Part shown: one piece after another, positions 16,606 through 58,039 of the stretch
Layout of the letters: every line of letters begins with the position of its first letter
Position numbering within the stretch: position 1 is the stretch's first letter
Source: Porphyromonas levii DSM 23370
GTDB taxonomy: Bacteria > Bacteroidota > Bacteroidia > Bacteroidales > Porphyromonadaceae
Reading direction: 5' to 3'
Assembly (NCBI RefSeq): GCF_000379925.1
Contig: NZ_KB904203.1
Span: 70 to 64,069 of the forward strand
Length of the DNA: 64,000 nt
Position numbers and translations under genes: made by a program
The notes under the pieces: generated by a model
Database searches by the model: none
What the model was told of the DNA's origin: nothing
Seen by the model: only the letters and a program-made list of their open reading frames with translations

Positions 16606-17667
16606 ATGAAACAGGCCGATATCATACCACCAATAGACCCAAGAATTATTAGGAGCGAACTGAATAAGGACTTATTGCTCCGAAAGACTAACCGTGCTGG
16701 AAACGAGCTGTACGCTTTTCACGCCCACGAAGCGCCCAATACGATGCTAGAGATAGGGCGACTAAGGGAGGCGGCTTTCCGCCCTGCTGGGGCGGGTTCG
16801 GGGAAGGCTGCAGATATAGATGAGTACGATATCGAGCCCGATGGATACAAGCAACTCATCGTATGGGATCCGCATGCTCAGGAGATATTAGGTGGGTATC
16901 GTTACATTGTCTGCGATCATGCAATAGAGACGTCTCCCGACGGCACTCGCTCTGTGCACTTATCGAGTAGCGAACTATTCGAATTTACCGATATTTTTAT
17001 CGATGAGTATCTCCCCAAAACAATAGAGCTAGGGCGTAGCTTCGTACGTAATGACTTACAGAATACGGGGAAAGGCAAGATACCTAGGTCTATCTTTACG
17101 CTCGATAATCTTTGGGACGGACTGGGAGCGCTCACGTTACTGCACGATGATTGCCAGTACTTCTTTGGCAAGATGACAATGTACGAGAATTACAATATCA
17201 AGGCTCGGGATCTCATCTACTATTATCTTGCCACTTACTTCAAGCCACGTGAACAACTGGTTAGGATGAAGTTCCCAATCCCCTACCAAACACCAACCAC
17301 AGAACTTGAGGAGATTATCAAGGGGAAGGATGCCAAAGCAGACTACAAGGCTATGAACAAAGCGATTAGGGAAATGGGGACAGCCATTCCGCCCTTGGTC
17401 AATGCCTATATCAGTCTTACAGACCGATTAATTGTATTCGGTACGAGCTACAATCCATTCTTTGGCAATGCTCTGGAGGCGTGTATCCTAGTACCGATAG
17501 AGGAGATTACTCCAGACAAAAAGAAGCGCCACATAGATAGTTTTCTACGTGACGCTCCTCGGTTACTTTCGCAGCGCTTGATTCGTCGTATTCAAAATCG
17601 CCTAAAGCGTCTCAATAAGGACGAGGAGCACCAAAGCCCTCAGCATATACTTCCCCACCTAGAGTGA
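16606..17667 (+). CDS. glsB: Glycine-lipid N-acyltransferase (GlsB-like, OlsB/hemolysin family)
   Basis: 353 residues of the GNAT-like OlsB family, which N-acylates an amino acid (ornithine in OlsB, glycine in GlsB) with a 3-hydroxy fatty acid from acyl-ACP. Visible family features are MLEIGRLREAAFRPAGAGSG, the acidic DIDEYDIEPDGYKQLIVWD, ELGRSFVRNDLQN, and PRSIFTLDNLWDGLGALTLL. It lies 33 bases after the O-acyltransferase gene, as in the Bacteroides glsB/glsA pair. No terminator is evident after it. Confidence 0.82.
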   Translation: MKQADIIPPIDPRIIRSELNKDLLLRKTNRAGNELYAFHAHEAPNTMLEIGRLREAAFRPAGAGSGKAADIDEYDIEPDGYKQLIVWDPHAQEILGGYRYIVCDHAIETSPDGTRSVHLSSSELFEFTDIFIDEYLPKTIELGRSFVRNDLQNTGKGKIPRSIFTLDNLWDGLGALTLLHDDCQYFFGKMTMYENYNIKARDLIYYYLATYFKPREQLVRMKFPIPYQTPTTELEEIIKGKDAKADYKAMNKAIREMGTAIPPLVNAYISLTDRLIVFGTSYNPFFGNALEACILVPIEEITPDKKKRHIDSFLRDAPRLLSQRLIRRIQNRLKRLNKDEEHQSPQHILPHLE

Positions 17668-17715
17668 AGCGGCAGAGAAGTTTAATAAAATAATAGTTAA
17701 AATTTAGAGCAATGT

Positions 17716-17745
17716 GGTTTTAATGCTTTGTAATTACTACATTTG
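17716..17745 (+). promoter_or_regulatory. Promoter of the small-peptide/GLPGLI operon
   Basis: TACATTTG at 17738-17745 matches the TAnnTTTG -7 box. Upstream TTTT at 17718-17721 is an imperfect -33 element at 16-base spacing. The implied transcript has a leader of about 145 nt before the peptide gene. Confidence 0.5.
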
Positions 17746-17898
17746 CAGGGACAACACATAAATTATGGAGCAAAGTTCTTTGAAACATAAAATTGTAGAG
17801 ATTAACATCTAGCTAGTCACATGACAAACAGACCATACTGCTAAAAGGAGCGGAATCCGAAAAGCTTATAGAGTAGGAAGTAATATCAACTAAAAATC

Positions 17899-18087
17899 AT
17901 GAAAAAGTTTTTATTGTGTTCAGCAGTTGCTTTATTTGCTTCTGCCGCTTTAGCCTCAGCAACACCACAGTATATCATTACTGACTGTGGCACTGTACGT
18001 CAGATTCCTGACAATGCTACCCCTGGAGACGCTTGTGACTATATCGATGTTTATTCGAACATCGACTGCGGCACATCGTACAAGTAA
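17899..18087 (+). CDS. Small exported cysteine-containing peptide
   Basis: 62 residues. A clear signal peptide (MKKFLLCSAVALFASAALA, cleavage likely after ALASA at residue 21) leaves a mature peptide of about 41 residues with three cysteines at 30, 46 and 57. Two of them lie in matching motifs, TDCGT and IDCGT. I do not recognise a family. It has its own promoter and long leader. It is followed by a strong stem-loop (18153-18192) and then by a GLPGLI protein and a TonB-receptor-like protein on the same strand, which suggests export, processing or uptake of the peptide by these partners. That link is an inference. Confidence 0.75.
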   Translation: MKKFLLCSAVALFASAALASATPQYIITDCGTVRQIPDNATPGDACDYIDVYSNIDCGTSYK

Positions 18088-18152
18088 TCAAGGGACTTTA
18101 ACAAGACCTTAACACACAATTTCATTTGCTGTGTGTACTCAAAAGTGAGGAA

Positions 18153-18192
18153 AGGGAGAAGGGGTGTGATTTCCGCCCTATCCCTTCTCCCT
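18153..18192 (+). promoter_or_regulatory. Intra-operon stem-loop after the peptide gene
   Basis: AGGGAGAAGGG at 18153-18163 is perfectly complementary to CCCTTCTCCCT at 18182-18192. It is followed by ATTAATTCATTTTATAAC, which is AT-rich but not a pure T-run. It may be a leaky terminator or 3'-protecting hairpin that raises peptide mRNA relative to the downstream genes. A smaller ACACA/TGTGT stem lies just upstream. Confidence 0.65.
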
Positions 18193-18219
18193 ATTAATTC
18201 ATTTTATAACAAATTACCT

Positions 18220-19050
18220 ATGGGAATAGATAGAGTTATTTTCGGATTAGTACTTCTCTCCACAATGGTATGTACATCCTACACTGCAAAGGGAGAGGGA
18301 AAAGAGAAGGTGCAGATTAGAGTCCACTACTCTACCAAGTACCACCAATTTGAAGGGCAGAAACAAGCTCTTGAGGATGAAGCCATCTTGGATATCGGTG
18401 GCAAGATCTCCCACTTCTATGGACTTAATAATGTCCAAAGGGAGTTGATTAAGGAACAGGTTTTGGCACAAGGAGGTAGTTCGGGAGATGTGATGAATGC
18501 CTGCGAGCGGGCTGGCTACCCAAGGACAAACCTGAATTATCAGGTTTGGAGAAACTATCCTACGACTAATCGGCTTACCTTTACCGAGAAAACCTTTAAG
18601 CATCTGCGCTATACAGAGCCGATGAGCAAGCCAGAATGGACTTTGGTGCCCAAGGATAGTATCATCGCAGACTACCACTGTCAGCAAGCCGAGACCGACT
18701 TCCGAGGTCGGCATTGGACGGTTTGGTTTACTACCGAGATACCTTATAGCGATGGTCCTTGGCTGCTTACCGGATTGCCTGGGCTTATTCTGCATGCAGA
18801 GGAGAGCGAAGGTCTATTCGCCTTTACGTGCACACAGATAGAGCGAGTGGAGAATGAAACCCTCTTCTATCCCAAGGGAAAATACGTGGATTGCAGCAAA
18901 CAGGAATACCGTGAACTTATGAAGCTATTATGGAAATCGCCTGATGCGCTATTTGAGAAGTTGACCGGATTTAAGACTCGAGGGAAAGATAGGTTCGGCA
19001 ATGACATTACCTATCCAGAGAGGGTGACACTATTTTTAGAAAAAGAGTAA
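18220..19050 (+). CDS. GLPGLI family protein
   Basis: 276 residues from ATG 18220, chosen because it opens a signal sequence (MGIDRVIFGLVLLSTMVC) and because the upstream extension to 18133 would read through the stem-loop. The defining motif LLTGLPGLIL is near residue 190. The family's conserved approach is also present: DYHCQQAETDFRGRHWTVWF and TTEIPYSDGPW. GLPGLI proteins are widespread in Bacteroidota, of unknown function, and are often next to TonB-linked outer-membrane proteins, as here (12 bases before the next gene). Periplasmic or outer-membrane location is inferred. Confidence 0.92.
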   Translation: MGIDRVIFGLVLLSTMVCTSYTAKGEGKEKVQIRVHYSTKYHQFEGQKQALEDEAILDIGGKISHFYGLNNVQRELIKEQVLAQGGSSGDVMNACERAGYPRTNLNYQVWRNYPTTNRLTFTEKTFKHLRYTEPMSKPEWTLVPKDSIIADYHCQQAETDFRGRHWTVWFTTEIPYSDGPWLLTGLPGLILHAEESEGLFAFTCTQIERVENETLFYPKGKYVDCSKQEYRELMKLLWKSPDALFEKLTGFKTRGKDRFGNDITYPERVTLFLEKE

Positions 19051-19061
19051 TCCTAGACGGT

Positions 19062-21617
19062 ATGCGTTTGCTCCCATTTTATCTAGCGATAGTACTATCA
19101 CTGATTTCCATTAGCTCTAGCGCACAAACTATATACAGTGCACGAGTAGTGGATGAAAAAGGGGTGCCTATACAAGATGTCAATGTCATGCTCTATCGTA
19201 CGGAGTCGACCCTGGTAGGATATGCTTTTACTGGGGTAGACGGGAGGTTCCAGATAACGACGAAAAAGGCTGCAAACCCAATAGCAATAGGATTTATGTT
19301 GCTGGGGTACGAGACGAGACGCATAAAGATAGAAGAGTTTAGGAGTGGGATGGATATTAAGCTACAGAGTACCACTTTTGAGCTCCGTGAAGTGAATGTC
19401 ACTCCCGAGAGAGTTAGGCAGAAGCAAGATACACTGGTATACAGTGTGTCCAACTTTAAGCTTAGTCAGGACAGGAGTATTGCCGATGTGATAAAAAAGA
19501 TGCCAGGGTTATCTGTTCGCACAGATGGACAAATTACCTTTGAAGGGAAGCCAATCAATAAATTCTATATTGAGGGGCTTGACTTACTCGGATCTAAATA
19601 TGCACAAGCGAGTGAGAACTTAAGCGCTGACAAGATTCAGGATGTGCAAATACTGCAAAACCACCAGCCGATAAGGAGTCTAAAGGGTGTACAATTTAGT
19701 GAACAAGCAGCCCTCAACATTATATTAAAGGACGAGGTAAAGAATGCGTGGACGGGGATTCTGAATGCAGGGATAGGGAGCACAGCACAAGGAGAAAAAG
19801 AGATGCTCTACAGCGGGCGTCTGATGGGGATGATATTTGGACGGCAAATGCAGAACCTCTCTATGTACAAGTATGATAACACTGGAAAAGACATCACAAG
19901 AGAGGTCCATGACCTAGTGACGGAACTACGGGGGAATCAGAAGGAGGCAGGTCTACTGAGAAGGCTAGTAGCTCCCGCAGCAGAGATAGAAAGGGGACGC
20001 TCTACTTTTAATCAATCACATCTCGTCACTACCAACCATCTAATAAAGACTAAGAATGATAATGATCTCCGCTTTCAACTCTCCTACTTTTGGGATAAAG
20101 AAAGAGGTAACTCTTCTCAAGTAACGAAGTATCTGGAACATGAGGGAAGCATCCTTTCTGAGGAGAGTAGTGTAGGCTCGAGGGTAAAAAGGTTGGAAGG
20201 GGAACTGACCTACAAAATTAATAAGGAGCGGAACTATATCAACAACCGCATAAATGGCAGCTTTACAGTAGACAGGAGCGAGGGAACCTCTCTTTTGCAA
20301 CAAAAACAGGTAGAGCAGAATGTAGTACTCAAGAAATATTATGTTACGGAGGACTTTGAGATCATACATCGCCTAAAGAATGGAAATACCATCGAGGGGG
20401 CTTCTCTTAGTACCTATAGTTCTCTCCCCGGGCAGTTACTGACTGCGCAGGGGTTTAGTGAGCACCTGAAGATATCGGCATTTAGCTCGGATAATTATGT
20501 AGCATTCAACCACTCCATTAAAGGTTTTATGCTAAACCAACGCATAGGGTACCAACTGAAGCACCAAGAGATAGACGTACAGTACCCTGAGGTAGATAGC
20601 AAAGAAAGGTATACCCAGCAGAATTGGTATATCTCGACAGGTGTGAACTACCGAAAGGATGCACTGGCTCTAAGAGCAACGTTAAAGGGCGATCTCTTAT
20701 GGCAAAAGTATGGAGCAACGAAGAAGAGAAGGTTTACATTTCAGCCTAGCCTATTCATACAGTATGAGTACAGTGCCAACTCTACTGCCTCACTCTCCTA
20801 TAATTACTTCGAGTATCCCGATGGTCTTACATCTATCTACCGCACACCTATATACACTTCTTATAGAGTGGTCACAGCTCATACTGGGAGTTTGGAGCAT
20901 AGAGGTAATCACGCAGTAGCTCTAGGGCTTAAGTATCAACGTCCTATCAAGGGGTATTTTGCAAGTATCAATGCTTCGTGGAATAGGCGAACGAATGAGG
21001 TGCTATACCATAGTACTCTACAATCCTCCATATATAGACAAACACCTACTGAACAACGGTACGACGCTTCTAGCTACTTACTAAGTGCGAACTTGGCAAA
21101 GTCGTTCTTTAGATGGAGGACGTTAATTACCCTCAAGGGACGACAGCTTTGGAGTGATTACTACCTACTGATGAGGGATAAGAAAGAGCCTTGGCAAATG
21201 CAGAATAGCGAACTTAGCCTTGCCGTCTCTATGCAACCATCGAAGGTCATTTCTTACGAAGTAACCAGTAAGATGATGAGCTATAAACAGGCCAATAAAG
21301 CGGATCGGTCTATCGCTAACCCCCGCATCACTTCCTTCTCGCATGCACTCGAATTATTTATTTTCCCGCTAAAGAATCTAGAACTGGGGAGTAAGAGCGA
21401 ATTTTACCATTACACTGACAAGAGCATACAAGGCAATGTATTCACTGATGCACACGTTAGCTACAAGAAGGATAGATACGAATTCAGACTCTCCTGCAGA
21501 AACATCTTTGGGAACAATCAATATCAGAGGAGGTGGCAGACATCGACTACAGATATTTACTCCATATTCCACATACGCCCAAGAGAGGTATTTTTTGACT
21601 TCACTATTTCGTTATGA
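19062..21617 (+). CDS. TonB-receptor-like outer-membrane beta-barrel protein with carboxypeptidase-regulatory N-domain
   Basis: 851 residues. A signal peptide ends at SSSAQ. Residues about 24-105 form a CarboxypepD_reg-like domain (YSARVVDEKGVPIQDVNVML, GYAFTGVDGRFQI). A plug-like region follows (ADVIKKMPGLSVRTDGQITF, FYIEGLDLLGSKYAQASENL). The rest is beta-strand-rich and ends in FFDFTISL, a typical barrel terminus with an aromatic or hydrophobic last residue. It lacks an obvious paired SusD gene. It is probably co-transcribed with the GLPGLI and peptide genes. Its substrate is unknown; the peptide is a candidate. Confidence 0.88.
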   Translation: MRLLPFYLAIVLSLISISSSAQTIYSARVVDEKGVPIQDVNVMLYRTESTLVGYAFTGVDGRFQITTKKAANPIAIGFMLLGYETRRIKIEEFRSGMDIKLQSTTFELREVNVTPERVRQKQDTLVYSVSNFKLSQDRSIADVIKKMPGLSVRTDGQITFEGKPINKFYIEGLDLLGSKYAQASENLSADKIQDVQILQNHQPIRSLKGVQFSEQAALNIILKDEVKNAWTGILNAGIGSTAQGEKEMLYSGRLMGMIFGRQMQNLSMYKYDNTGKDITREVHDLVTELRGNQKEAGLLRRLVAPAAEIERGRSTFNQSHLVTTNHLIKTKNDNDLRFQLSYFWDKERGNSSQVTKYLEHEGSILSEESSVGSRVKRLEGELTYKINKERNYINNRINGSFTVDRSEGTSLLQQKQVEQNVVLKKYYVTEDFEIIHRLKNGNTIEGASLSTYSSLPGQLLTAQGFSEHLKISAFSSDNYVAFNHSIKGFMLNQRIGYQLKHQEIDVQYPEVDSKERYTQQNWYISTGVNYRKDALALRATLKGDLLWQKYGATKKRRFTFQPSLFIQYEYSANSTASLSYNYFEYPDGLTSIYRTPIYTSYRVVTAHTGSLEHRGNHAVALGLKYQRPIKGYFASINASWNRRTNEVLYHSTLQSSIYRQTPTEQRYDASSYLLSANLAKSFFRWRTLITLKGRQLWSDYYLLMRDKKEPWQMQNSELSLAVSMQPSKVISYEVTSKMMSYKQANKADRSIANPRITSFSHALELFIFPLKNLELGSKSEFYHYTDKSIQGNVFTDAHVSYKKDRYEFRLSCRNIFGNNQYQRRWQTSTTDIYSIFHIRPREVFFDFTISL

Positions 21618-21652: not shown

Positions 21653-22007
21653 TCACCACTTGAACACTTCACTCGGTGTACGAGCTGAATCCAATTGAAC
21701 TTGTAGCGACGCCACTACCTCAGGATATTGTTGCGACAAATCGAATAGCTCTCCAGGGTCATGACGTAGGTTATACAGTTCGAGCTTGCTTTCCTTTGGT
21801 TGCTTAGCATTGAGACGGATAAGCTTCCAATCTCCCACGCAGATAGCTTGGCACCCACCTAGCTCATAAAACTCCCAATATAGGTAGCTGTGCTGCTTCT
21901 GCATCGCTTCCTCACCTAGCAACGTAGGCAGCATGGAGATCCCATCGATATTGGCAGGAGTCTTTACGCCCGCAATTTCAGCGAATGTGGGCAAGAAGTC
22001 CCAAAAT
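21653..22007 (-). pseudogene. Sulfatase C-terminal remnant
   Basis: About 118 codons encode the C-terminal end of an alkaline-phosphatase-superfamily sulfatase: FWDFLPTFAEIAGVKTPANI, DGISMLPTLLG, YLYWEFYELGG, VGDWKLIRLNAKQP and LELYNLRHDPGELFDLSQQ. The N-terminal catalytic part, including the formylglycine Cys/Ser motif, is missing. The homology stops exactly where a MITE-like element (22008-22185) begins, and no further sulfatase sequence lies beyond it. The frame stays open into the element by chance, so a short chimeric protein is possible but would be inactive. Confidence 0.85.
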
Positions 22008-22185
22008 GCGAATGTTGCACGAAGTACCATTCTCGCCGATTTGCAATCAAATCGGCTTAGACGTTGCACGGTGGTGAAATACAAGGCACTGAGACTGAGA
22101 CTAAGCTGACGGGAGCGTACTCTCGTACGTGACCGAAGCCGAATGTCGAAAGTAACGCAGTAGTTCGCCACCGTGCAACAGTCTC
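22008..22185. mobile_element. MITE-like element, copy 1 (long form)
   Basis: Begins GCGAATGTTGCACGAAGT and ends CGTGCAACAGTCTC, matching copies at 30811 and 44202. The core is bounded by inverted TTGCACGGTGG motifs (22064-22178). It carries no gene. It directly truncates the sulfatase remnant. I find no clear target-site duplication, as expected if a deletion removed one flank. Confidence 0.8.
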
Positions 22186-22265: not shown

Positions 22266-24710
22266 TTATTTCTTATTCTTCTTTTTCTTATCGTGCTCTC
22301 GCCCATAGCCATAGCCGTAACCATAGCCATAGCCATAGCCATAGCTCTTAACAAGCAAGGAGTCTTTGATATAAACATCATTGAGCACAATACTTACATT
22401 CTTCAGCTTCTTATTGTGGCTGAGATAATTAATGTAGTCAAAGTCTCTCTTCTCTGTCTTTCCGGAGCGCACTACATAGATTGTATGATCTACCACTCTA
22501 TTCAGAACCAAACTATCTACTACTGGACCTACAGGTGCAGTATCTACGATAATATAGTCGAAGTTCTGGCGGAAGATATTAAAGAGTTCATCAAGTCTTG
22601 GTCGCGCCAAAAGCTCTGGAGGACTAGGTGGGATGGTACCCGCGTTAATAATAGACAGATTAGGGAATCCCTTCGGATGTTGCAGATAATCCAACGGATT
22701 AAGAGAACTATCATTAAGCAAATCGGACATCCCAACAGTCGAACTATTCCCAATGCCGAACGTACGTTTTAGCTGTGGGTTACGGATATCCAAACCGACA
22801 AGCAACACCTTCTGATCCAGTGCAGCAAGAGAAATAGCAAGGTTACTGATAACAAAAGTCTTACCTTCTCCACTCACTGTAGAGGTACCCATGACTACCA
22901 ATGGACGTTTATTCTGCGTTAGGAAGCTTAGGTTGGTACGAATGGCACGGAATACCTCAGTCATTTGGCTATTACCATTAACCTTCACAACCAACTCTGG
23001 ACGTTTTGGATCAGGAGCCTCTTCTTGACTTCTTGGCACTGTACCAGCAATAGGCAAAGTGGTGAGCGCACGAATATCATCCTCTACGACGATCTTATTT
23101 CTCAAGAGTTTCCATAGGAATACACCCGCAGTAGGCAGGATAAGACCTAGTAGCAATCCAGCGAGATAAATGATAGGTTTCTTGGGGGACGAAGGCACAT
23201 TAGCCGCGAGAGGGGTATCAATAATACGAGCACTCTCAAGTGATGCGGCCAACTTTATCGAAGTCTCCTCTCTACGTGTCAATAACATCAAATAGAGATT
23301 AGAGCGAATTGAGCGCTGACGCTCAATATCTGTACTGATACGTTCGAAAGTAGGCGCCTCAGCAATCTTAGAGGTATAACGTTTCTCTAGGTTCTTCAAT
23401 CCATGAAGCTGTATCTCCAAACCTTGCTTTGCCACACTCGCTGCCTCCAAGATATTAGCCCTAGCCACATCGATATTATTAGAGAGCGCTACCACCCTTG
23501 GATGCTCTGCATTGGCAGCCTCCATAAGACTATTACGCTCAAATACCATTTGGTTGTACAGCTCTACAGCTGTATTCAAGGTACCATCAGCAAAGCCTAA
23601 GTTCCCTGGGATAATCTCATACTTACCCTGTTTATTCTCAAGGTCACCAATCAAGAAACTCACCAACTTGAGTTGGGTCTCAGCCTCAGACCTCTGCACA
23701 TCCATTGTTGCAGTCCCTTGCACGACAATACCTAGGTCTTGATAACTGGTTATACCTTGCGATTTCTTGACCGACTCTAGCTGAGCTTCAGTCTCACTAA
23801 GTTCATCACCAATAAGTTTGATACGCTCATTGATGAAGTTATAAGTCTTTTGTGCTGCAGCATCCTTATCAATGGCACGTTCGCGGTTATACACTTCCAT
23901 CAGCTTAGACAAAAAGGCCTCGCCTTTCTCCCTATTCACCGACTGAATGGTAAGCACCGCTACCGAACTCTGCTTGTTGGCTCGCTCTGCTGTCAATCCG
24001 CCTTTCTCTGAGTAGTAGATGGCTTGTCTGAGCGGAGAGCTAAGGGTAACACTAAAACTACTTGGCATCTCTACACCTTCTTCCCTAGGGGTACGCTTAG
24101 TCATAGAGACAATCCCGTGTCCCAAGGCAAAAGTTGCTGGAAGAGAATCTATCACAATATCGTCGACGTCCTCTTGGTGTATTCTATAACGACCTTCTTC
24201 CAAAGGCTGAACCTCGAAGTAAATAGGACGCTCTATCTTACTAAGCCCTACAGGGTCCATAGAAATCATAAAGGGGAGGTTATCGTACCATACAATAGTC
24301 CGCAACCCTTTCTTGCTTGTCACCTCCACATACTCTGAACTCTCTTCGAGAGCCTTTTTCAAGATTTCACGAGAGCGCAATATCTCTAGCTCGTTGTCCA
24401 CATTTACATTGGAAACCCCCATACCGAGTTCGGAAAAGTCGATACCCTCTATCTTAGGAGACTTATTGTCCTTCTCATCGATAAATAGGGTAGATGCCTT
24501 CACTTGATACTTCGGCTTTTGCACAGTAATATAAAGCCATGCGAAGCCCAAACAAAGAGTAACAACAATAAGGTATATCGGCCAAAACCTGAGGTAATCC
24601 TTAAGTATCGCAGTAAGATCAATCTCCTCCTCATTGCTAAAAGAATCATTAGCACGAGGTGCACCCTCTAATCCGGGCGCATCATTTTGTGTATTATAGT
24701 TGCTGTTCAT
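22266..24710 (-). CDS. Wzc-type polysaccharide co-polymerase and tyrosine autokinase
   Basis: 814 residues. A Wzz domain with TM1 (about residues 36-57) comes first, then a periplasmic coiled-coil region. TM2 lies around IIYLAGLLLGLILPTAGVFL. The cytoplasmic BY-kinase domain has Walker A VSGEGKTFVISNLA, the second box VLLVGLDIRNPQLKR and Walker B FDYIIVDTAPVG. The tail is Tyr-rich, YGYGYGYGYGYGYGR then a poly-Lys end, and is the autophosphorylation cluster. It controls chain length and export of capsular polysaccharide with Wza, encoded just upstream. The tail is encoded by hexanucleotide repeats at about 22305-22350 that could vary in number without breaking the frame. Confidence 0.94.
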   Translation of the reverse strand: MNSNYNTQNDAPGLEGAPRANDSFSNEEEIDLTAILKDYLRFWPIYLIVVTLCLGFAWLYITVQKPKYQVKASTLFIDEKDNKSPKIEGIDFSELGMGVSNVNVDNELEILRSREILKKALEESSEYVEVTSKKGLRTIVWYDNLPFMISMDPVGLSKIERPIYFEVQPLEEGRYRIHQEDVDDIVIDSLPATFALGHGIVSMTKRTPREEGVEMPSSFSVTLSSPLRQAIYYSEKGGLTAERANKQSSVAVLTIQSVNREKGEAFLSKLMEVYNRERAIDKDAAAQKTYNFINERIKLIGDELSETEAQLESVKKSQGITSYQDLGIVVQGTATMDVQRSEAETQLKLVSFLIGDLENKQGKYEIIPGNLGFADGTLNTAVELYNQMVFERNSLMEAANAEHPRVVALSNNIDVARANILEAASVAKQGLEIQLHGLKNLEKRYTSKIAEAPTFERISTDIERQRSIRSNLYLMLLTRREETSIKLAASLESARIIDTPLAANVPSSPKKPIIYLAGLLLGLILPTAGVFLWKLLRNKIVVEDDIRALTTLPIAGTVPRSQEEAPDPKRPELVVKVNGNSQMTEVFRAIRTNLSFLTQNKRPLVVMGTSTVSGEGKTFVISNLAISLAALDQKVLLVGLDIRNPQLKRTFGIGNSSTVGMSDLLNDSSLNPLDYLQHPKGFPNLSIINAGTIPPSPPELLARPRLDELFNIFRQNFDYIIVDTAPVGPVVDSLVLNRVVDHTIYVVRSGKTEKRDFDYINYLSHNKKLKNVSIVLNDVYIKDSLLVKSYGYGYGYGYGYGYGREHDKKKKNKK

Positions 24711-30810: not shown

Positions 30811-30983
30811 GAGAATGTTGCACGAAGTGCCATTCTCGCCGATTTGCAAGCAAACCGGCTGAGACGTTGCACGGTGGTGAAATACAAGGCACTGAGACTG
30901 AGGCTAACGAGAGCGTACTCACGTACGTGACCGAAGCCGAATGTCAAAAGTAACGCAGTAGTTCGCCACCGTGCAACGGTCTC
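30811..30983. mobile_element. MITE-like element, copy 2 (long form) with 5-bp target duplication
   Basis: 173 bases, starting GAGAATGTTGCACGAAGTG and ending CGTGCAACGGTCTC. TTAAT at 30806-30810 is repeated at 30984-30988, a clean 5-bp target-site duplication. Inside are two hairpins: one built on GAGAATG/CATTCTC and the perfect CCGATTTGC-type stem, which is partly mutated here. No coding sequence. Confidence 0.88.
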
Positions 30984-44201: not shown

Positions 44202-44374
44202 GAGAATGTTGCACGAAGTGCCATTCTCGCCGATTTGCAAGCAAATCGGCTGAGACGTTGCACGGTGGTGAAATACAAGGCATTGAGACTGAGGCTGACG
44301 GGAGCGTACTCACGTACGTGACCGAAGCCGAATGTCGAAAGTAACGCAGTAGTTCGCCACCGTGCAACAGTCTC
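44202..44374. mobile_element. MITE-like element, copy 4 (long form)
   Basis: About 173 bases, from GAGAATGTTGCACGAAGTG to CGTGCAACAGTCTC. CTTA flanks both sides (44198-44201 and 44375-44378; CCTTA if the last base of the element is shared), consistent with a 4-5-base target duplication. It contains the perfect hairpin CCGATTTGC-AA-GCAAATCGG. It separates the sugar-transferase fragment from the pair-2 AAA gene. Confidence 0.85.
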
Positions 44375-57915: not shown

Positions 57916-58039
57916 GAGACTGTTGCACGGTGGCGAACTACTGCGTTACTTTCGACATTCAGCTTCGGTCACGTACGTGAGTACCCTCCCGTCAGCCTCA
58001 GTCTCAGCGCCTTGTATTTCACCACCGTGCAACATTCTC
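57916..58039. mobile_element. MITE-like element, copy 5 (short form) with 5-bp target duplication
   Basis: 124 bases in the opposite orientation to the other copies. The ends are GAGACTGTTGCACGGTGG and, on the other strand, GAGAATGTTGCACGGTGG, giving terminal inverted repeats of over 20 bases with few mismatches. CAATT at 57911-57915 is repeated at 58040-58044. It lacks the 49-base double-hairpin segment found near the GAGAATG end of the long copies, so it looks like the ancestral form or a deletion product. Confidence 0.9.

Follow-up and report, generated by a model that had tools for sequence, protein, structure and literature searches.

Short exported cysteine peptides encoded directly upstream of GLPGLI genes in Porphyromonas levii and other Bacteroidota

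Several peptide systems described in Bacteroidota share features with the locus analysed here. Members of the TIGR04149 family are precursors of ribosomally synthesised and post-translationally modified peptides (RiPPs) that are modified by radical S-adenosylmethionine (rSAM) enzymes. In the GG-Bacteroidales RiPP system, such a precursor is accompanied by a TIGR04148 rSAM maturase, a TIGR04150 pseudo-rSAM protein and a C39 peptidase ATP-binding cassette (ABC) exporter. The Bacteroidales RiPP clusters BGC6-9 encode a peptidase-containing ABC transporter (PCAT) and an outer-membrane protein (OMP) with no membrane fusion protein, and their authors raise the question of a distinct mechanism of export (PMC10352776). 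In a survey of graspetides, TonB-related barrels encoded beside Bacteroidetes graspetide clusters were predicted to act as ribosomal-peptide exporters (PMC8939145). Here we describe an operon of three genes from Porphyromonas levii DSM 23370, located in a 64-kb stretch of contig NZ_KB904203.1 (hereafter, the window), which encodes a short exported peptide precursor, a GLPGLI protein and a predicted TonB-receptor-like barrel. GLPGLI proteins form a widespread but uncharacterised Bacteroidota family, and the link to peptides presented below offers a first testable role for them. In a literature search to which subscription papers and preprints were external, no link between GLPGLI and peptides was found, GLPGLI being met in expression tables.

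The window peptide belongs to a family of short exported proteins, previously unnamed and without a Pfam or NCBIfam model, that we refer to as xTxCG peptides. The family is defined by a Sec or double-glycine (GG) leader, a T-x-C-G motif, a cysteine 20-30 residues further on and a GLPGLI gene directly downstream; the window peptide has such a composition and position, with the core pattern xTxCG ... ~25 amino acids (aa) ... C. A search of 61 genomes with this peptide returned, from the host genome, a paralogue of 61% identity and, from congeners, weak matches, the best two of which lie directly 5' of GLPGLI genes. GLPGLI genes were also collected from 80 genomes, and the DNA around about 85 loci was inspected upstream. 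In these loci, small signal-peptide open reading frames (ORFs) with T-x-C-G concentrate immediately 5' of GLPGLI, and the look-alikes found elsewhere have no common core. A profile built from these upstream ORFs (A1) was then run on whole genomes, blind to GLPGLI. In 38 genomes of the bacterial family, every match covering the mature core precedes a GLPGLI gene, the matches restricted to the signal peptide being set aside. One of these places holds a frameshifted peptide relic (L174, genome G024) that was absent from the seed of the profile.

The same position is found further away. A set of 295 genomes of the class added two members, each directly 5' of GLPGLI, one in Bacteroides pyogenes and the other in a member of a different order. 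When two more families were searched (181 genomes), the peptide matches again preceded GLPGLI, with the exception of the cores carrying a GG leader. The 79 GLPGLI loci of named species, a set picked by GLPGLI that therefore measures the position of the peptide and not its frequency, hold 13 peptides, all 13 on the same strand and just 5' of GLPGLI; their hosts include members of Bacteroides, Palleniella and Tannerella as well as the Cytophagales species Thermonema. Peptides directly 5' of GLPGLI are thus present in Porphyromonas, Bacteroides and Chryseobacterium, as well as in a Cytophagales species. The first-pass annotation, made from the window alone, had proposed to look for peptide-like frames beside other GLPGLI-barrel pairs; these were found across families, and the idea emerged strongly from the search. 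By sequence comparison, an xTxCG peptide nearly always sits directly 5' of GLPGLI. The host genome itself has five xTxCG peptides and 21 GLPGLI copies.

In the precursor (MKKFLLCSAVALFASAALASA-TPQYIITDCGTVRQIPDNATPGDACDYIDVYSNIDCGTSYK), residues 1-21 form a signal peptide, recognised by inspection, with an ASA cleavage site after residue 21. It contains four cysteines. C7 belongs to the signal peptide, and the mature part holds C30, C46 and C57, of which two lie within DCGT motifs. The exported ORF noticed in the first pass is thus confirmed. In the alignment of the xTxCG family, Cys30 and Cys57 are kept in at least 90% of the members, and Cys46 is not conserved. The structure model consists of a beta-hairpin and a helix, with a predicted local distance difference test (pLDDT) score of about 85-91 across residues 21-60, and puts Cys30 in the turn of the hairpin and Cys57 where the helix ends, from which we infer that the mature peptide would hold a Cys30-Cys57 disulfide. 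Disulfide formation in such peptides is consistent with the presence of a VKOR-C39-thioredoxin-like fusion gene inside one GLPGLI operon. The window peptide matched no Pfam or NCBIfam model and neither TIGR04149 nor a GG leader, carrying a Sec signal peptide instead. A search of a plasmid collection with the peptide and a PDB fold search with its model gave no match either.

Peptides of other kinds are also encoded beside GLPGLI genes. In the host genome, a signal-peptide or GG-leader ORF lies just 5' of 11 of the 16 testable GLPGLI genes and of none of the 69 control genes (Fisher p 2e-10). TIGR04149 was found at seven places in the 38 family genomes, and all five above the cut-off plus one of the two below it adjoin GLPGLI; the host genome accounts for two of these six. 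In genome G061, the gene order is GLPGLI, two GG peptides, GLPGLI, GG peptide, GLPGLI, radical SAM maturase, second maturase and C39 ABC exporter, and in genome G022 it is barrel, GLPGLI, GG peptide, TIGR04148 maturase, TIGR04150 pseudo-rSAM and C39 exporter, with comparable gene sets in a Rikenellaceae contig and in Bacteroides neonati. Contig 98 of the host (L380 / L080) carries what is likely a peptide natural-product cluster, with two GLPGLI genes and a barrel followed by a LanC-like gene and a fragment of a TIGR04157 glycosyltransferase. C39 exporters adjoin GLPGLI in four family genomes and a window-type peptide in genome G535, and in the named-species GLPGLI loci all 12 C39 places are on the GLPGLI strand. 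Among the matches listed, a membrane fusion protein (PF13437) near the GLPGLI-linked C39 exporters was either absent from those contigs or distant, an absence that is not specific to GLPGLI, since host C39 loci without GLPGLI likewise show none.

A further connection comes from three genomes of the Chryseobacterium family, where an NF047798 leader (above cut-off) precedes the same xTxCG core, identical at 20 of 60 positions to one signal-peptide member. This core would thus be deliverable by two routes, and nothing else in the sequences hints as strongly at the window peptide being a secreted, bacteriocin-like product. Such a link had been suggested in the first-pass annotation; it is supported by the GLPGLI operons that contain RiPP precursors, maturases and C39 exporters and by the core behind a bacteriocin-type leader, and the overall interpretation given there is partly supported.

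Other arrangements were seen in the same collection. The G061 cluster (L157, contig 17, 3918-7932) interleaves three double-glycine RiPP precursors with three GLPGLI genes. A second family of exported proteins, of ~120 aa and unrelated to xTxCG, has a C-S/T-V/I-T-V-T repeat-like core and is encoded directly 5' of GLPGLI in L079 3728-4093, L162 3620-3994 and L163 3398-3769 (minus strand, strand coordinates). In L130 3581-3952 and L138 3680-4015, this place is taken by a third family of exported proteins (DGRSC ... RFC).

The GLPGLI protein of the window scores 167.1 bits against TIGR01200 (curated cut-off, 50), and its AlphaFold2 model, from an 84-sequence alignment, reaches a pLDDT of 92. It resembles the N-terminal bowl-like domain of PNGase F-II (4r4x, 4r4z, 7zgn) both by sequence (E 1e-9) and by fold (Z 15.6). 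The model also matches the half-barrels of LolA, LolB, RseB, MucB and ependymin-like proteins with Z about 8 to 9.7 over ~120-140 residues; by sequence search, no match to LolA, LolB, RseB or MucB was found. Half-barrels of the LolA/RseB/MucB type transport lipoproteins or bind peptides within the periplasm, and GLPGLI is predicted to fold like these periplasmic carriers. The barrel gives weak matches to CarboxypepD_reg and Plug (Plug, 13.9 bits against a Pfam cut-off of 23.9), and its family profile matches SusC N-terminal domains (E 3e-11) and, weakly, ZnuD, which points to a TonB-receptor-like protein. A barrel accompanies GLPGLI in 68 of the 79 named-species loci.

In the window, peptide and GLPGLI genes are separated by a gap that folds at -40.1 kcal/mol (z -4.2), none of 200 shuffles being equally good. 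Strong folds (z <= -3) occupy this gap in 26 of 33 testable pairs, with stems unrelated in sequence and often with a T-run; among ordinary gaps between genes on one strand, the count was 17 of 60 (p 3e-6). The stem-loop of the window, which does not have the T-run of a textbook terminator, is likely an attenuator or RNA stabiliser. Regarding the expression signals proposed in the first pass, the perfect 11-bp stem-loop is present and has counterparts in the gaps of relatives. The promoter proposed for the peptide gene is suggested only: TACATTTG, at position 17738, agrees with the -7 element of Bacteroidetes, yet the exact -33/-7 Bacteroides promoter pair was not found at 17714-17745. Scans for sigma-70 promoters and classical terminators gave nothing above chance.

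Across 38 non-redundant pairs, the similarity of the peptides correlates with that of their GLPGLI proteins (Pearson 0.60, reached in 0 of 5000 permutations), and a Spearman coefficient of just 0.16 indicates that the correlation is carried by close pairs. The pairs nearest to the window peptide and GLPGLI are in Bacteroides and are not their own paralogues. By these figures, the peptide diversifies together with GLPGLI; linkage alone could produce such a correlation, which does not prove binding.

The comparisons firmly favour viewing the product as a putative mini-protein that is secreted and has a cognate GLPGLI partner in the periplasm. Going further, our preferred reading, which we hold tentatively and rate somewhat short of probable, is that of a bacteriocin- or pheromone-type disulfide mini-protein carried by its cognate GLPGLI and released via the barrel. 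The precursor would cross the inner membrane by Sec and be cleaved to a mature peptide of ~41 aa, which would fold as a beta-hairpin-helix held by Cys30-Cys57. The cognate GLPGLI, as a LolA/MucB-like half-barrel, would bind it in the periplasm, and the TonB-receptor-like barrel would receive it from GLPGLI and release it. In the sister operons, GLPGLI and barrel would serve double-glycine RiPP-type peptides brought to the periplasm by the C39 ABC exporter. The hairpin 3' of the peptide gene may allow more peptide to be made than partner proteins. A broader proposal, possible but doubtful in our view, is that GLPGLI proteins are LolA-like peptide carriers replacing the missing membrane fusion protein and form, with the barrel as exporter, a new two-step Bacteroidota secretion route accepting Sec- or C39-delivered peptides. 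If GLPGLI does serve exported peptides, this would bear on product exit in those Bacteroidales RiPP clusters having an exporter and an OMP with no membrane fusion protein (PMC10352776).

Several observations weigh against carriage by GLPGLI and release by the barrel. In other genomes, an upstream peptide was found at 21 of 106 GLPGLI genes versus 13 of 225 controls, figures diluted by the inner members of tandem arrays and by a crude rule, and many GLPGLI genes have no recognised peptide. The LolA-like Z scores of 8-10 are modest, with LolA itself reaching 9.3 at most over an unrelated-fold background of 7-8. TonB-receptor-like barrels are normally importers, and many loci of the Chryseobacterium family hold peptide and GLPGLI with no barrel nearby; the barrel is not an obligatory partner. 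The nearest GLPGLI-barrel pairs, in two congeners (one of them P. somerae) with GLPGLI 73-86% identical, are without the peptide, the DNA of these loci being 75-79% identical with a similarity that begins near the GLPGLI start. Retention of the pair where the peptide is missing is easier to reconcile with immunity or re-uptake than with pure export. Because of these peptide-less relatives and barrel-less loci, the roles of GLPGLI as carrier and of the barrel as exit, as regards both binding and the direction of transport, are held as the leading reading only.

Immunity would make the peptide an antibacterial mini-protein, GLPGLI its cognate periplasmic immunity protein and the barrel its receptor or exporter, with peptide-less GLPGLI genes and tandem arrays as orphan immunity genes. 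This would agree with a peptide nearly always found with GLPGLI and a GLPGLI often found without peptide, with the tandem arrays and the 21 copies in one genome, with the co-diversification of the pair, and with the bacteriocin-type exporters and leaders nearby. However, a barrel that stays with GLPGLI in 68 of 79 loci goes beyond the needs of an immunity gene, no killing activity is known and, to our knowledge, the LolA-like carrier fold is not among the immunity folds, so that we judge this explanation unlikely. Re-uptake would instead imply that the secreted peptide binds a nutrient (metal, haem) and that barrel and GLPGLI recover the loaded peptide in the style of a siderophore and its receptor. 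The SusC and weak ZnuD matches of the barrel point in this direction, and the congeners with GLPGLI and barrel but no peptide resemble non-producers keeping the receptor. Nevertheless, just two cysteines are strictly conserved and are best read as a disulfide, several peptide-GLPGLI loci are without barrel, and the GLPGLI system is shared with rSAM RiPP and C39 operons, which makes retrieval decidedly improbable. RseB and MucB being among the fold matches, the peptide could also remain in or return to the periplasm and signal via GLPGLI, as MucA or OMP peptides do via MucB/RseB. To this we assign only a slight chance, given that the window operon has no sigma or anti-sigma factor gene and that bacteriocin ABC systems export the versions with a GG leader. 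Finally, the frameshifted copy in G024 and the two congeners without peptide could speak for a chance or decaying ORF, an explanation with hardly any credit left: a chance ORF was ruled out by a core and position conserved across orders, and the paralogue in the host genome and the relatives in the same place in other families argue in the same sense.

The layout of the locus is given in Table 1. The order peptide, GLPGLI and barrel, already read from the bare sequence in the first pass, is borne out by the ORFs, the TIGR01200 score and the barrel profile matches. Peptide and GLPGLI genes are 132 bp apart, and GLPGLI and barrel genes 11 bp. The ATG at 18220 is a likelier GLPGLI start than the GTG at 18133 and gives a protein of 276 aa. 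The gene preceding the operon is glsB, encoding the N-acyltransferase of glycine lipid synthesis, with its 3' end at 17667, and no maturase or C39 exporter gene was found among the ORFs at 14-25 kb of the window.

Table 1. Features of the peptide-GLPGLI-barrel locus (positions in the 64-kb window)
Feature	Position	Strand	Basis
Possible Bacteroidetes-type -7 promoter element (weak), TACATTTG	17738..17745	+	sequence inspection
62-aa exported peptide precursor, xTxCG family	17899..18087	+	62-codon ORF; homologues, alignments
Perfect 11-bp stem-loop between peptide and GLPGLI	18153..18192; arms 18153-18163, 18182-18192	+	folding
GLPGLI family protein, 276 aa, signal peptide	18220..19050	+	TIGR01200; LolA/RseB-like fold predicted
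TonB-receptor-like outer-membrane barrel, 851 aa, CarboxypepD_reg-like N-terminal domain	19062..21617	+	profile matches

Downstream of the operon lies a dispersed repeat of ~150 bp (22030-22180) that recurs about 20 further times across the genome at up to 96% identity, with four copies in the window (22030-22180, about 30833-30977, 44224-44369 and 57921-58033), resembling a small mobile element or one of the repetitive extragenic palindrome (REP) or miniature inverted-repeat transposable element (MITE) type. A C-terminal sulfatase-like fragment (21653-22171, minus strand) is truncated where this repeat starts and resembles a gene remnant. The window also has a chain-length/tyrosine-kinase-like polysaccharide gene (22266-24710, minus strand) with a long terminal GY repeat (YGYGYGYGYGYGYG), possibly a phosphorylation tail.

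Among the known systems, the GG-Bacteroidales RiPP system, which occurs in the host genome and its relatives, also has a short exported cysteine-containing precursor beside or directly 5' of GLPGLI and barrel, whereas the window peptide is led by a Sec signal peptide, with no GG leader, and its operon has neither maturase nor C39 exporter. The NF047798 leader_Chryseo 'bacteriocin-like protein' shares the xTxCG core and differs in its leader and in having no adjoining GLPGLI. BGC6-9 likewise combine a peptide exporter with an outer-membrane protein and no fusion protein, GLPGLI being unmentioned there (PMC10352776). The graspetide-linked barrels are similarly outer-membrane barrels, predicted to export a ribosomal peptide (PMC8939145), but the window operon is without ATP-grasp ligase. 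As for the proteins themselves, the bowl domain of PNGase F-II is a true relative of GLPGLI in sequence and fold, although fused to a glycoamidase, whereas the GLPGLI of the window is free-standing. LolA, LolB, RseB and MucB align with the predicted fold of GLPGLI at Z 8-9.7; GLPGLI has, in addition, a helical part at its C-terminus and the conserved GPxK/W...GLPGL motif.

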